The notes under the pieces: generated by a model
Told to the model about the DNA's origin: nothing
Database searches by the model: none
What the model saw: the letters and a program-made list of their open reading frames with translations, nothing else
In this document: positions 3,963 to 49,728 of the stretch, in pieces
Layout of the letters: each line of letters begins with the position of its first letter
Numbering within the stretch: the stretch's first letter is position 1
Position numbers and translations under genes: made by a program
Assembly: GCA_015654795.1 (NCBI GenBank)
Contig: JAATGF010000077.1
Location: 1 to 49,899, forward strand
Length of the DNA stretch: 49,899 nucleotides
Direction: 5' to 3'
Origin: Bacteroidales bacterium
GTDB taxonomy: Bacteria > Bacteroidota > Bacteroidia > Bacteroidales > Prolixibacteraceae

Positions 3963-4202
3963 TATAACGTGAACCATGAATAAAAGCTATGGATCAGAAA
4001 ACCATTTTTGTGTATATTCTAAACATGAAAAAATAGTTCAGTTAGAATTCTTTGAAATGAACAATTCTGTCTTATCCGCACATCTCTATTTTTTTAAAGC
4101 GTCATTTTATTTGACTATAGCTGAAAACCGGCTTGATTTATTCTCTTCTTATTTTTGATATCTTTGTGTATATATTAACTTCCTTCAGTTTTACTATTTC
4201 AA

Positions 4203-5111
4203 ATGAAATTTTTCAAAGTACCGGATAAAGGCGACCCGTCAAATATTCCTCAACTCTTTTCGGGGTTGAATATTAATTTGTTATGTTGCAGATTCTGGTG
4301 GCTGAAAAACTGGGAAAGCAGGAATATGTCGTTTCCTTACTGGCGGATCTACTGGAATAAAAGTTTTGGAGGGATTATCTCATTTGCCGGAAAAACAATC
4401 GAGCTTACCCCAAACCAGATTATTCTGATTCCACCATATACCGCATTTTCGAGTCGCTTAAAGGGAAATACGATACCTTCATCCGGCTACAACCTCGAAG
4501 GGGGAAGAGTTGGAGAGGGTGATCCTGATCTGGATTTATTGAGTGAAGGAGCAGTGCATCATCTGTTTATCCATTTTAATCTGGGTATGCCTTATGACTT
4601 TATTTCTCCGCAATTGTTCTCTTTCGAAGTTTATCCCGATTTACGAGCTGATCTGGAAGAACTCTCTTTTAGTCTTCGTCAGAACAATGTGCAGTTGTCG
4701 GTTCAATCAAGTCTGCTGATTTACAAAATCATTATCCTCACCGTAAGTCAGATTCCTAAAGAGTTTTGGAACCTGGCGACGACTGATCAGCGGATCCTGA
4801 ATGTTTTACGGGAGATTGAAGATCATATTTCGGAGGAGCTCACCAACAAACGATTGGCACAGGTGGCAAATATGGCGGTCAATTCTTTTGCACGTGTTTT
4901 CAAAGAAGAAATCGGAGTTCCGCCACAGCAATTTGTCAGGGAGAGAAGGGTGCAGAAAACCAGTATCCTGCTTCACCATACCACTGAACCTATTGAAGAG
5001 ATCGCCCGGCTGTCGGGCTTTTGCGACCGATTTCATTTGGCGCGTGTCTTCAAAGAAGTGACTTCATACTCACCGGCACAATACCGAAAACAGTATTATC
5101 CCAAGAGCTAA
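4203..5111 (+). CDS. AraC-family transcriptional regulator
   Basis: The 302-residue protein has an N-terminal cupin-like sensing region (~40-180, with SFAGKTIELTPNQIILIPPYT) and a C-terminal pair of helix-turn-helix motifs (~205-298). Diagnostic motifs are NKRLAQVANMAVNSFARVFKEE and EEIARLSGFCDRFHLARVFKE ending in SPAQYRKQYYP. It is transcribed divergently from fucU with a 289-bp spacer, the usual arrangement for a local activator of a sugar gene set, so regulation of fucosidase/FucU is a reasonable inference. Possible -7 elements (TATTTTTG 4150-4157, TATCTTTG 4159-4166) lie 35-50 nt upstream of the start. Confidence 0.9.
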   Translation: MKFFKVPDKGDPSNIPQLFSGLNINLLCCRFWWLKNWESRNMSFPYWRIYWNKSFGGIISFAGKTIELTPNQIILIPPYTAFSSRLKGNTIPSSGYNLEGGRVGEGDPDLDLLSEGAVHHLFIHFNLGMPYDFISPQLFSFEVYPDLRADLEELSFSLRQNNVQLSVQSSLLIYKIIILTVSQIPKEFWNLATTDQRILNVLREIEDHISEELTNKRLAQVANMAVNSFARVFKEEIGVPPQQFVRERRVQKTSILLHHTTEPIEEIARLSGFCDRFHLARVFKEVTSYSPAQYRKQYYPKS

Positions 5112-6724: not shown

Positions 6725-8406
6725 TCTCAGATAAAAAACATGTTCAGCAACTCGCAGCCCTACTTCTGAAAAAGGGGATTACAGATATTGTGATCTCGCC
6801 AGGAAGCCGCAATGCACCAATGATTAATACATTTACGGGTATTCCCGGTTTTTGCTGTCGAAATATTGTTGACGAACGTAGTGCTGCCTATTTTGCAATT
6901 GGATTGGCACTGGCAAAACAAAAACCAGTTGTGTTGATTTGCAGTTCAGGAACGGCTGCATTAAATTATACACCGGCAGTTGCAGAGGCATTTTACCAAA
7001 ATATACCACTGATTATTCTCACGGCTGATCGTCCCAATTACTGGATTGATCAGGCTGAAAGTCAATGTATCCGTCAGGAAAATATCTATCAGAATTTCAC
7101 GAAAAAGGAAATTAGTTTGCCTTTAGGCGAATCAGAAAAAGAACTTTGGTATGCCGCAAGGCAAATTAACGAATGCCTGAATCTGTCTGTTTCAGGACAA
7201 CTCGCTCCGGTACATATTAATATTCCGCTCGAAGAGCCTTTACATAAACTGGTTCACGCGGATTTATCTGAAGTAAAGGACATTGAACTGGCAGAAACCC
7301 AAAATGTATTAGAAGAAAATGAGATTGCATGCCTGGTCAAAACTATTAACCAGTCGCAAAAGGTTCTGATTTTGGCAGGGCAGCAAAGTCCCAATCCAGA
7401 ACTGGAAAATATATTAGCCAAGCTGATTGATAAAACAGGAGCAATTGTTCTGCATGAACATTTATCGAATCTTTCTGATCCACAATTTTGTGGAAGCATC
7501 GATGTACTGATGACTGGCATCCTGGATGAAAATATCGAATCGTACCAGCCCGATTTGCTGATCAGTTTTGGAGGACAGTTTGTCTCCAAAGCGCTCAAAC
7601 AATTTCTTCGAAAAAATAAACCTCTGCAGCATTGGCACCTAAGCTTGTCCGGCGAGCATTTCGACACTTACCAGTCGCTGTCGAAAGTCGTCAAAATGGT
7701 GGCTGTCGATTTTTTTGATGTGATTTCATCTCATGTTCAGCAAAACGACGACAAAGGCTATCTTCAGCTGTGGAAAAACAAAGAAGCGAAAGTCAATCAG
7801 CTTCGTGATGAATTTGTGGAAAGCATTGATTTCTGCGATTTGAAAGCTTTTAGTCTTATCGGACAAAAAATACCAACCGGCACTGTTATTCATTTGGGCA
7901 ATAGTTCGCCGGTGCGATATGCCCTGATCCATAACCGGGTTAAAAACGCAAAATATTACAGTAACCGTGGTACAGCAGGAATTGACGGATGTTTATCGAC
8001 AGCGGTTGGTTTTGCCAACGAATCGGATAAGATAAACACCATCATTTTGGGTGACCTATCTTTTTTTTACGATTCGAATGCTTTGTGGAACAAATATATC
8101 GGATCAAATTTGCGCATCATCGTTATTCACAACGGTGGCGGAAATATCTTTGGCATGATCAAAGGTCCATCTGACTCACCTGCATTTACGGAACATTTCT
8201 TAGCTGAAAATATACTTAAGGCCGAAGTATTGGCAAAAGCTTTCGGTCTTGATTATTTCAAGGCCGAAAACGAAGCAGAACTTGAAAACGCACTGGATGA
8301 ATTCTATTCCCCGGAACAAAAGAAAGTTGCTTTATTGGAGGTTTTTACGAATGCGGAAACGAATGTGAGGGAGTTTCGGGAATTATTTAAACAAGTTAAA
8401 ATGTAA
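6721..8406 (+). CDS. menD: SEPHCHC synthase (2-succinyl-5-enolpyruvyl-6-hydroxy-3-cyclohexene-1-carboxylate synthase)
   Basis: The 561-residue thiamine-diphosphate enzyme adds 2-oxoglutarate to isochorismate with loss of CO2. The N-terminal Pyr domain holds [10 protein letters not shown] (~26-35) and the activating glutamate region [12 protein letters not shown]. The C-terminal PP domain holds the ThDP/Mg motif [14 protein letters not shown] (~440) and [11 protein letters not shown]. Length and motifs are normal for MenD. It overlaps menF by four nt, indicating translational coupling, and is followed after 11 nt by menB. No menH (SHCHC synthase) gene follows; that step may be spontaneous or encoded elsewhere. 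Confidence 0.95.
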
Positions 8407-18116: not shown

Positions 18117-18183
18117 TTTGATTTGAAAATGGGCGCTCTGCGAATGTTTCGAGTGTCAGGGAGACGGAGAGATGAATGTCATT

Positions 18184-18309
18184 AAGAAGCCATTGAAAGG
18201 GTCATTGGCTTCGCCGTCATTGAAGAAGTCATTGAAAAGGTTGTTGGCTTCGCTGTCATTGAAAAGTCATTAGAAAAGGTCATTGGCTTCGCTGTCATTG
18301 AAAGGTCAT
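18184..18309. repeat. 39-bp minisatellite, three units plus partial
   Basis: Units are at 18184-18222, 18223-18261 and 18262-18300, followed by a 9-nt remnant. Each contains GTCATTG...AAAGG and TTGGCTTCGCTGTCATTG. The units differ by a few substitutions and one compensating indel. The array abuts the 505-bp repeat copy 2, and a matching array is not present next to copy 1. Confidence 0.9.
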
Positions 18310-18337: not shown

Positions 18338-18392
18338 TATGGGCCAAACAAGAACCAAACATAGAGCAAACATAGAGCGGACATAGAGCAAG
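18338..18392 (+). repeat. 11-nt tandem array, five units
   Basis: The units are TATGGGCCAAA, CAAGAACCAAA, CATAGAGCAAA, CATAGAGCGGA and CATAGAGCAAG. The array is paralogous to 19-84 with one unit fewer. The first two units are almost identical between the copies, so the gain or loss happened in the CATAGAGC part. Confidence 0.9.
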
Positions 18393-45823: not shown

Positions 45824-46040
45824 CCCCTCGTTTGTAACCTACTCTTTATACATATCTTAATAATCCCGTTAGATACTATGATAGAAAACCAGTTCCTGAT
45901 TGGAGGTTCCGTCCCGTACGGGACGGTATAATGGTTTGTAATTCCTTTTTCTACCTCCCGCATATGTGGGATGCCTGACGGCACACATCTTCGATTCAGA
46001 ATCACTATTTGTGTATAAAGAGTAGGTTGCAAGCGAGGGG
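45824..46040. repeat. 217-bp inverted-repeat element (MITE-like)
   Basis: The ends are 29-nt inverted repeats (45824-45852 and 46012-46040) with two mismatches, starting CCCCTCGTTTGTAACC and CCCCTCGCTTGCAACC. Inside is a perfect 18-bp palindrome (45909-45926, CCGTCCCGTACGGGACGG) and CCCGCATATGTGGG (45957-45970). It has no coding capacity. A relative of the ends is at 49756-49899. Confidence 0.85.
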
Positions 46041-46211: not shown

Positions 46212-46790
46212 CTACAGTTGTTTAAAAAAAAACATTTCTCCGGCGGTATTAACCCTTACCATAATCTTGCTGTTCTCCTTTGTCAGTTCCACAAAATAAT
46301 TGTCTTCGTCATCAAACTGGAGGCCATAAAGCATCATATCGGTATCACTAAATTCATTATCGTCGAAAAAGATAACCGGGCCAACAGAATAATCTTTGTA
46401 CCTGGTTTTTATTGTCTTCTGACCTTTACCCGGCACGTCGGCGAAGGTTTTGGGTGATGTTGTTCCAACTAATTTTCCATAAAAATCATAAAAAGCAGTT
46501 ATTTCATGTCCATCTTTAGCGAAGGTTGCTTCGTCGAAATACGCAGAACTTCTCCATTTCACGTTCGGCACATCACCAAAGTCTGTATAAAGACTGTTCT
46601 TTGAGATTACATTTACTTCGCTGCTCTCAAGTTTCCGAAGTACCTTTTTTTCTGTTTTTAATTCTTTCTTTTCCGTCTTCAATTCTTTTTTGGTTTCTTT
46701 GATCGCTGCTTTTTCCTTTTCCTGTGCCTGAATTTGTATTACAGTTATAGCTAACAGGAATGTCATTGACAAAATTGCTAACTTTTTCAT
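46212..46790 (-). CDS. Secreted Lys/Glu-rich protein of unknown function
   Basis: The 192-residue protein has a signal peptide (MKKLAILSMTFLLAITVIQIQAQ). A charged Lys/Glu helix follows (~24-52, with ELKTEKKELKTEKK), then a compact region (~58-192) with DFGDVPNVKWRSSAYFDEATF and ITAFYDFYGKLVGTT. The latter pattern recalls small periplasmic PepSY/BLIP-like sensor or adaptor proteins of Bacteroidota, but I would not assign a function. Its promoter region carries three 11-bp direct repeats just upstream of a TAATTTTG box, suggesting control by a response regulator. A good terminator follows the gene, so it is monocistronic. Confidence 0.8.
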   Translation of the reverse strand: MKKLAILSMTFLLAITVIQIQAQEKEKAAIKETKKELKTEKKELKTEKKVLRKLESSEVNVISKNSLYTDFGDVPNVKWRSSAYFDEATFAKDGHEITAFYDFYGKLVGTTSPKTFADVPGKGQKTIKTRYKDYSVGPVIFFDDNEFSDTDMMLYGLQFDDEDNYFVELTKENSKIMVRVNTAGEMFFFKQL

Positions 46791-46834
46791 AATGGTGAAT
46801 TTTTAAAAATTGTTTTTAAAATTAAATCTATCAC

Positions 46835-46873
46835 CAAAATTATGAAGACTTTATGAAGATTTCATGAAGAAAT
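46835..46873 (-). promoter_or_regulatory. Promoter with three 11-bp direct repeats
   Basis: On the minus strand a TAATTTTG -7 box (46835-46842) is preceded by three 11-bp direct repeats. Plus-strand readings are TATGAAGACTT, TATGAAGATTT and CATGAAGAAAT, so the bound strand reads TCTTCAT three times at an exact 11-bp spacing. The repeats fill the -35 region and no -33 TTG is present, as expected for an activator-dependent promoter. OmpR/PhoB-type response regulators typically bind such 11-bp direct repeats. Confidence 0.65.
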
Positions 46874-49578: not shown

Positions 49579-49728
49579 CTTCCTTCGTATCAAGTCCCTA
49601 TCAAGTCCCTATCAAGTCCTGACGTGAATTAATTTAGAAAATTAACAATATATAGCGGGAAAGGGCTGCATTTTTAAATACGATTAAGCTATTTGCAAAT
49701 ACAACATTATTTCATTTCTGGTACTTAA
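49579..49728 (+). repeat. Core-plus-array element E4
   Basis: Four 11-nt units (CTTCCTTCGTA, TCAAGTCCCTA, TCAAGTCCCTA, TCAAGTCCTGA; 49579-49622) are followed after 27 nt by the full core (49650-49728: ATATAGCGGGAAAGGGC, ACGATTAAGCTATTTGCAAA, TACAACATTATTTCATTTCT). This is the same arrangement as E1 in the opposite genome orientation. Two middle units are identical, a sign of recent slippage or duplication. Confidence 0.85.

Follow-up and report, generated by a model that had tools for sequence, protein, structure and literature searches.

Asr is a small, Lys/Ala-rich protein, and in E. coli Cpx controls degP. PMC4415409 attributes to Asr a protection of periplasmic proteins when the pH is low, and it describes the PHO box as two 11-nt direct-repeat units, with seven conserved and four less conserved bases, that are bound in tandem and head to tail. 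According to PMC9026648, the PhoB site of the asr promoter overlaps the -35 element and leaves a 9-bp spacer to the -10. RstA, an OmpR-type regulator acting on a tandem repeat, up-regulates asr, and its box is TACAN6TACA (PMC4117788).

Here we analyzed a promoter of a Bacteroidota genome that carries 11-bp direct repeats at a TAnnTTTG box. Judging from sequence comparisons, we consider it about 85% probable that these repeats form the operator of an OmpR/PhoB-family regulator encoded, together with a histidine kinase, on contig C121 of the same genome. No name for the box, the regulator, or the regulon appeared in titles and abstract openings, a body of literature with subscription journals mostly outside it, and TTCAT was not found in the main text of PMC9723704.

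Tandem repeats at a promoter box

In the window (the whole stretch of DNA analyzed, 49,899 nucleotides), the minus strand has three copies of TCTTCAT (46864-46870, 46853-46859, and 46842-46848) with a period of exactly 11 bp, as located by the initial annotation. This period corresponds to tandem half-sites repeated at about one helical turn (10 to 11 bp). The first two copies, which match exactly and have the core CTTCAT, are referred to as half-sites 1 and 2. Read on the minus strand from 46873 to 46835, the region is ATTTCTTCATGAAATCTTCATAAAGTCTTCATAATTTTG, and the third copy, specific to the window, runs into TAATTTTG (46842-46835, minus strand), its last base being the first base of this box. 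TAATTTTG follows the TAnnTTTG consensus 10 bp from half-site 2 and is a candidate -7 box (candidate A). The other candidate, TAGATTTA (candidate B; 46823-46830, minus strand), has one mismatch, at its last base, and lies 11 bp from the third copy.

The target gene is an ORF of 192 aa (46212-46790, minus strand). As the initial annotation had proposed, its product looks secreted and Lys/Glu-rich: by eye, it has a signal-peptide-like start followed by a Lys/Glu-rich linker at about residues 23 to 56. No Pfam or NCBIfam model matched this protein at its cut-off; PF11396 was absent at an E value of ≤1, and the best Pfam model, DivIC, stayed below its cut-off (E value of 0.0014). An AlphaFold2 model built from eight sequences had a mean pLDDT of 72.7, with most of the first 60 residues below 50. 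In a Foldseek search, this model matched 4hbr, 4k61, and 4fr9 at E values of ~1e-6 (for 4k61_B, E value of 8e-7 and target TM-score of 0.78). Past the Lys/Glu-rich stretch, the protein is thus predicted to fold as a DUF2874/BLIP-like domain. Between this gene and a FadL-like gene lies a 29-nt inverted repeat (45824-45852 and 46012-46040; 93% complementary, 159 nt apart), which could represent the ends of a small noncoding element.

Under a first-order Markov model, TCTTCATN4TCTTCATN4TCTTCAT is expected 1.4e-7 times per window, and the looser TTCATN6TTCATN6TTCAT is expected 0.0009 times per window and 0.065 times per genome-length sequence. In the 3.68-Mb genome, whose sequence is 69% complete, TCTTCATN4TCTTCAT was found only in the window, at two overlapping places (control, 0). 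This null model is nevertheless too lenient because other 11-bp arrays are common in the genome, and their abundance makes conservation the better test of the repeats.

We therefore looked at the orthologous promoters. The window gene had matches in 8 of 61 genomes, its own included. The two closest orthologues were 73% and 64% identical, and one homologue was 41% identical. Their promoters (L004, L005, and L007) all harbor TCTTCAY-N4-YCTTCAY and, after a further 11 bp, TAnnTTTG; each has two repeats, which are the counterparts of half-sites 1 and 2 of the window. No box was found upstream of the homologues L006, L011, L012, and L015, nor did the family scan place a site at their contigs. Weak matches (L008, L009, L010, L013, and L014) were left out of this comparison. 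At L102 (contig C62 of G001, 4105-5065), two neighboring genes, that of a peroxiredoxin and the orthologue of the window gene, are each preceded by a box.

A second box beside a regulator and kinase pair

Searching the genome with CTTCAYN5CTTCAYN{7,14}TANNTTTG yielded two places (reversed control, 0), the window and C121:30601-30636. The initial annotation had held that a lack of other promoters with this box would speak against it; one more does exist, and it begins 2 bp after the stop codon of a histidine kinase gene. This kinase (C121:29252-30598, plus strand; 448 aa) has the expected domains and is divergent from the gene of an OmpR-type response regulator of 228 aa (C121:28469-29155, minus strand) with Response_reg and Trans_reg_C domains above cut-off. 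A regulator with a receiver and a Trans_reg_C domain is hence genetically linked to the sites. For either protein, no cut-off was reached among the 25 best NCBIfam families. The C121 box precedes a secreted-looking, Lys/Ala-rich ORF of 72 aa. For the one small protein tested, a Pfam match above cut-off was not found. Targets may be missing from this list of two because the genome is 69% complete.

The genome encodes four other OmpR-type regulators, which by neighborhood and by eye are one PhoB-like, one KdpE-like, and two RprY-like proteins. The stretch SN-x-I/V-D-V/A-H-x-x-N, which we take to be the recognition helix, was present in all 29 relatives chosen for the alignment and in none of these four. 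Since relatives without a box have it too, it supports common descent rather than the box in particular.

The conserved core of the box consists of two CTTCAY half-sites 11 bp apart, followed after 10 to 11 bp by TAnnTTTG. For the 43 family sites whose spacer is 11 (G061 included), the consensus is TCTTCAYGATTCCTTCATAATTGGGATAATACATTTGA, in which the letters of CTTCAY and TAnnTTTG were imposed by the search and additional conservation is seen at spacer positions T19 and G21. The placement beside the core promoter is fixed: in a search that required TAnnTTTG and permitted spacers of 9 to 13 only, the spacer to TAnnTTTG was 11 at 43, 10 at 2, and 12 at 1 of 46 family sites and 10 at 26 and 11 at 1 of 27 sites from a draw across the phylum. 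All 23 sites of genus g56 have a spacer of 10, so that both 10 and 11 occur. The usual distance places the -33 element where the half-sites lie, and by this distance the two half-sites would cover the -33 region.

Co-occurrence of box and regulator

The family scan (140 genomes; spacer, 9 to 13) gave 46 box sites in 24 genomes, compared to 2 in the reversed control. The regulator was found at an E value of ≤1e-60 in 21 of the 140 genomes, all of genera g1 and g8, and in all 21 a box lies downstream of the kinase gene, within about 110 bp of the aligned end of the kinase in 20 genomes and at about 420 bp in G024. Only 3 of the 119 genomes lacking the regulator had a box (Fisher's P = 4e-22, relatedness ignored). 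Since relatedness does not enter this P value, the joint presence or absence of regulator and box within single genera carries more weight: in g8, both regulator and box are carried by the identical five of eight genomes, while in g1 the regulator is present in 16 and the box in 17 of 18. As for the three boxes without a regulator match, of which those of G061 and G109 are hard to accommodate in a simple way, the contig of G005 stops within the kinase gene, the G061 site has no ORF behind it by the rule of the script, and the G109 site adjoins a regulator of 39% identity having an SN-x-V-D-V-H helix stretch. At this last locus (L089, 4509-6609), which is perhaps a paralogous system with an identical site, the stretch reads SN-x-V-D-V-H-x-K-N and the CTTCAY box lies behind the kinase gene, before a secreted-looking protein of 229 aa.

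In 395 genomes drawn evenly from the phylum, we found 29 sites in 16 genomes (control, 1) and the regulator in 22 (Fisher's P = 4e-14 for regulator versus box over the whole draw). Genus g56, which belongs to another family, shows regulator and box in the identical 11 of its 23 genomes; none of the 23 sites there is more than 2 kb away from the regulator gene. The box was seen in 4 of the 373 genomes without the regulator (G164, G232, G290, and G445). However, the pattern detected no box in 10 of the 22 regulator-bearing genomes (families f28 and f36), although the best regulators there, at 50 to 55% identity, are no more distant than those of g56 (50 to 54%). A relaxed scan with two pattern alternatives found nothing convincing in the 1.5-kb flanks of 12 regulator loci from these 10 genomes, and over 19 loci (these 12 plus 7 of Pedobacter or Hymenobacter) it gave two unconvincing places, both at L260. 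Either the box has changed in f28 and f36 or the regulator reads another site there.

Scanning named contigs for the regulator, we retained 80 loci, to which a looser pattern (a TTCAY pair plus TAnnTTTG in 5-kb flanks) was applied. Such a site was present in Pontibacter, Rufibacter, Chitinophaga, and two Bacteroidales MAG loci and absent from the 5-kb flanks of three Hymenobacter and four Pedobacter loci. At the Pedobacter locus L140, a CTTCAT pair without TAnnTTTG precedes a small Lys/Ala-rich ORF. An unrelated locus, L152, likewise matched the looser pattern.

Overall, the claim of an OmpR/PhoB-type box at a TAnnTTTG promoter held up: two repeats are retained in two orthologous promoters and one homologous promoter, and in three genera, which represent two families, the box tracks one OmpR-type regulator.

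Genes behind the boxes

At the 46 family sites, the genes behind the box comprise 22 small Lys/Ala-rich genes beside the kinase gene and 15 further small Lys-rich genes elsewhere. The remainder are four genes of the window protein family, two HtrA genes (G005 and G007), one peroxiredoxin gene (G001), and two others (G061 and G109). The G005 HtrA was above the NCBIfam cut-off and the peroxiredoxin was confirmed by its family model, while the G007 HtrA was assigned by likeness; as candidate periplasmic quality-control genes, HtrA accounts for 2 and peroxiredoxin for 1 of the 46 sites. The 22 kinase-linked proteins are 62 to 118 aa long and contain, after residue 21, means of 32% Lys/Arg/His, 35% Ala, 13% Pro, and 7% Asp/Glu. 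Similarly, 21 of the 23 sites in genus g56 precede small, Lys-rich, secreted-looking ORFs; at one G506 site, where the first ATG gives an ORF of 43 aa, the 66-aa ORF of the second ATG was counted. In G317, also of g56, one site lies before the gene of a 195-aa protein that shares 39% identity with the window protein, so that the box and the window protein family meet in two families. G317 has a third box near the regulator (C8:74773; L234 and L236), before a secreted-looking protein of 303 aa. The genes behind the boxes suggest a role of the regulon in protecting the cell envelope.

The third repeat and the choice of -7 box

The initial annotation had described a box of three repeats. Its 11-bp direct repeats stood, but the conserved unit is a pair of half-sites, CTTCAY-N5-CTTCAY: a third copy was seen at 1 of 46 family sites, the one in the window, and at none of the 27 sites of the phylum draw. 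Two registers are conceivable in the window. Register A combines repeats 1 and 2 with TAATTTTG (spacer, 10; leader, 44), and register B combines repeats 2 and 3 with TAGATTTA (spacer, 11; leader, 32 nt); the leaders of 42 family sites have a median of 29 and range from 26 to 79. A PWM was built on 42 family sites out of the total of 46: we chose to omit G061 and G109, and the fixed spacer could not accommodate two more, that of the window (spacer, 10) and the HtrA site of G007 (spacer, 12). Register B scored 28.8, the highest value in the window, and register A scored 11.2 unaltered and 27.5 with one spacer base added free. Member sites score between 26.4 and 64.9, which puts both window registers at the low end.

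The alignments were divided as well. In a MAFFT alignment, the other three promoters have an 11-column gap opposite the third copy, which favors register B, with the third copy as a tandem duplication of a half-site. A pairwise alignment with G001 also has its gap at the third copy (register B). In contrast, the pairwise alignment with the nearest orthologue, G017, retains TAATTTTG, and the presence of this box in G017 favors register A. With the evidence split, the active -7 box may be TAATTTTG or TAGATTTA, and both may be in use. Given that PMC9723704 has such a box at -12 to -5, TAATTTTG would correspond to a transcription start near 46830 and TAGATTTA to one near 46818.

Other 11-bp arrays

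The pattern TTCATN6TTCATN6TTCAT, with up to two mismatches, matched 156 places in the genome versus 27 in the reversed control. In the window, other exact period-11 triples of a 7-mer lie at 42, 53, 18359-18361, and 49588-49591. It had been suggested that such arrays could be degenerate or decoy sites. We inspected 16 distinct TTCAT-triple arrays, taken from the first 30 loci among the matches listed. The 15 that lie outside the window have different units (e.g., TTCATGTTTGR and TTCATTRGGGT); TAnnTTTG was not detected by the script in the 40 bp that follow them, and an ORF of ≥60 aa starting within 200 bp is missing from 13 of the 15. The script overlooked TAATTTTG of the window because the final T of the repeat is also the first base of this box, but inspection by eye revealed no such overlapping box at the 15 arrays. 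For these matches listed, the decoy-site model was rejected on account of the differing units and the lack of TAnnTTTG behind them. The arrays rather look like a dispersed repeat family than like operators of the CTTCAY kind.

Arrays with an 11-bp period are dispersed across many contigs (e.g., L018, L025, and L037). Those in the window have the units CATAGAGCAGG (41-84), CAAACATAGAG (18356-18391), and TATCAAGTCCC (49588-49619), and a stretch related to the 11-bp units of the window, ACATAGAGCAGG, lies behind the 72-aa gene in L053. A 39-bp tandem array with GTCATTGAAAAG units occupies 18177-18309 of the window, and a similar sequence occurs in L053 at ~7060-7120. Additionally, a stretch starting GTCATATTTGGTTCATACCAACTTCAT is found on at least 20 contigs (e.g., C3:328, C19:280, C27:17, C42:95, and C99:20), on at least 11 of which it lies within 350 bp of the first base, a pattern suggestive of a repeated element at which the assembly breaks.

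Discussion

The repeats, their spacing, their co-occurrence with the regulator, and the genes behind the boxes are read directly from the genomes. From these we infer the following mechanism. The C121 regulator, once phosphorylated, would bind as a pair of molecules in head-to-tail orientation across two CTTCAY half-sites with an 11-bp period. Both molecules would lie on the same helical face and take up the position of the -33 element. The bound regulator would then activate the polymerase carrying the main sigma factor at TAnnTTTG, 10 to 11 bp downstream. The regulon would be small and include one or more secreted Lys/Ala-rich proteins, one of them encoded beside the kinase; the DUF2874/BLIP-like window protein would belong to it in some genomes, and HtrA or a peroxiredoxin in occasional cases. 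This likely mechanism, in which direct repeats beside a core promoter are bound head to tail, is an ordinary one in the OmpR/PhoB family (PMC4415409; PMC4117788).

One could object that the window repeats belong to the genomic stock of 11-bp intergenic arrays and came to lie in a promoter by chance. The genome indeed holds many TTCAT-containing 11-bp arrays, and the window itself has other exact period-11 triples. Conservation largely refutes this explanation, which we regard as extremely improbable: the orthologous promoters of other species retain two repeats and the spacing to the -7 box, the identical box stands before other genes beside one regulator, and the 15 other arrays among the matches listed have different units and no TAnnTTTG behind them. 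The box could instead be real but read by a different OmpR-type regulator. PhoB comes to mind since CTTCAT resembles the core of the E. coli pho box, CTGTCAT; moreover, the PHO box has the same architecture of 11-nt units (PMC4415409), and the genome encodes four further OmpR-type regulators. Two of these, the PhoB-like protein and one RprY-like protein, were covered by our profiles. The former is found in 120 and the latter in all 140 of the family genomes, compared to 24 with the box, so that neither tracks the box (as labeled by eye and neighborhood), and both were rejected as its readers. Nor does the box have a CTGTCAT-type core or a presence that follows PhoB, its core being CTTCAY. The box and the C121 regulator, in contrast, share their presence and absence within g8 and g56 and adjoin each other, and we hold a different reader to be very unlikely.

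Alternatively, the promoter might require all three repeats, which could, for instance, hold several dimers in a ladder and so provide graded or self-limiting control. This proposal stems from the overlap of the third copy with a -7 box, and the window does have three exact copies in register. However, the window site alone has three, its orthologues having two, and the third copy fits an 11-bp duplication, even though TAATTTTG in the nearest orthologue argues for the other register. A need for all three is thus unlikely in our opinion, and we favor the reading in which a pair of half-sites is the operator of the C121 regulator.

In a wider and more tentative proposal, to which we would give somewhat less than even odds, at least two families of Bacteroidota would possess a dedicated two-component circuit unlike any named one. 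Its main output would be small, probably disordered, strongly basic secreted proteins (Lys/Ala/Pro-rich, 62 to 118 aa), which would serve the periplasm as a polycationic buffer or as a chaperone and so be convergent with Asr of enterobacteria. They would be joined by BLIP-like proteins and HtrA, and the kinase-adjacent gene would be the constant output. What the data provide is a testable assignment of regulator, operator, and regulon in Bacteroidota: one regulator gene and a 36-bp promoter pattern with which to find candidate targets, which are secreted-looking and otherwise unannotated. Lys/Ala-rich and DUF2874/BLIP-like proteins become linked to one signaling system, and the same arrangement recurs in a second, distant genus.

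How does this locus compare with described systems? The predicted fold of the window protein is like that of solved Bacteroides periplasmic proteins of the DUF2874/PepSY-like (PF11396), BLIP-like kind, but the protein has no PF11396 match at an E value of ≤1 and has an extra Lys/Glu-rich N-terminal stretch. HtrA behind the box in two genomes (G005 and G007) recalls the CpxAR-type envelope stress response, yet only 2 of the 24 box-bearing family genomes have it there and the operator is different. With PhoB and the PHO box of E. coli, the locus shares tandem 11-nt direct-repeat units beside a core promoter; it differs in its core, CTTCAY instead of CTGTCAT, and in its targets, those seen not being phosphate genes, and a separate PhoB-like regulator is encoded in the genome beside a PhoU-like gene (by eye). 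Finally, RstA/RstB-asr likewise combines an OmpR-type regulator with a tandem repeat. Its RstA box, TACAN6TACA, is different and it belongs to another phylum, and a Lys/Ala-rich composition is what the small proteins described here would share with Asr.
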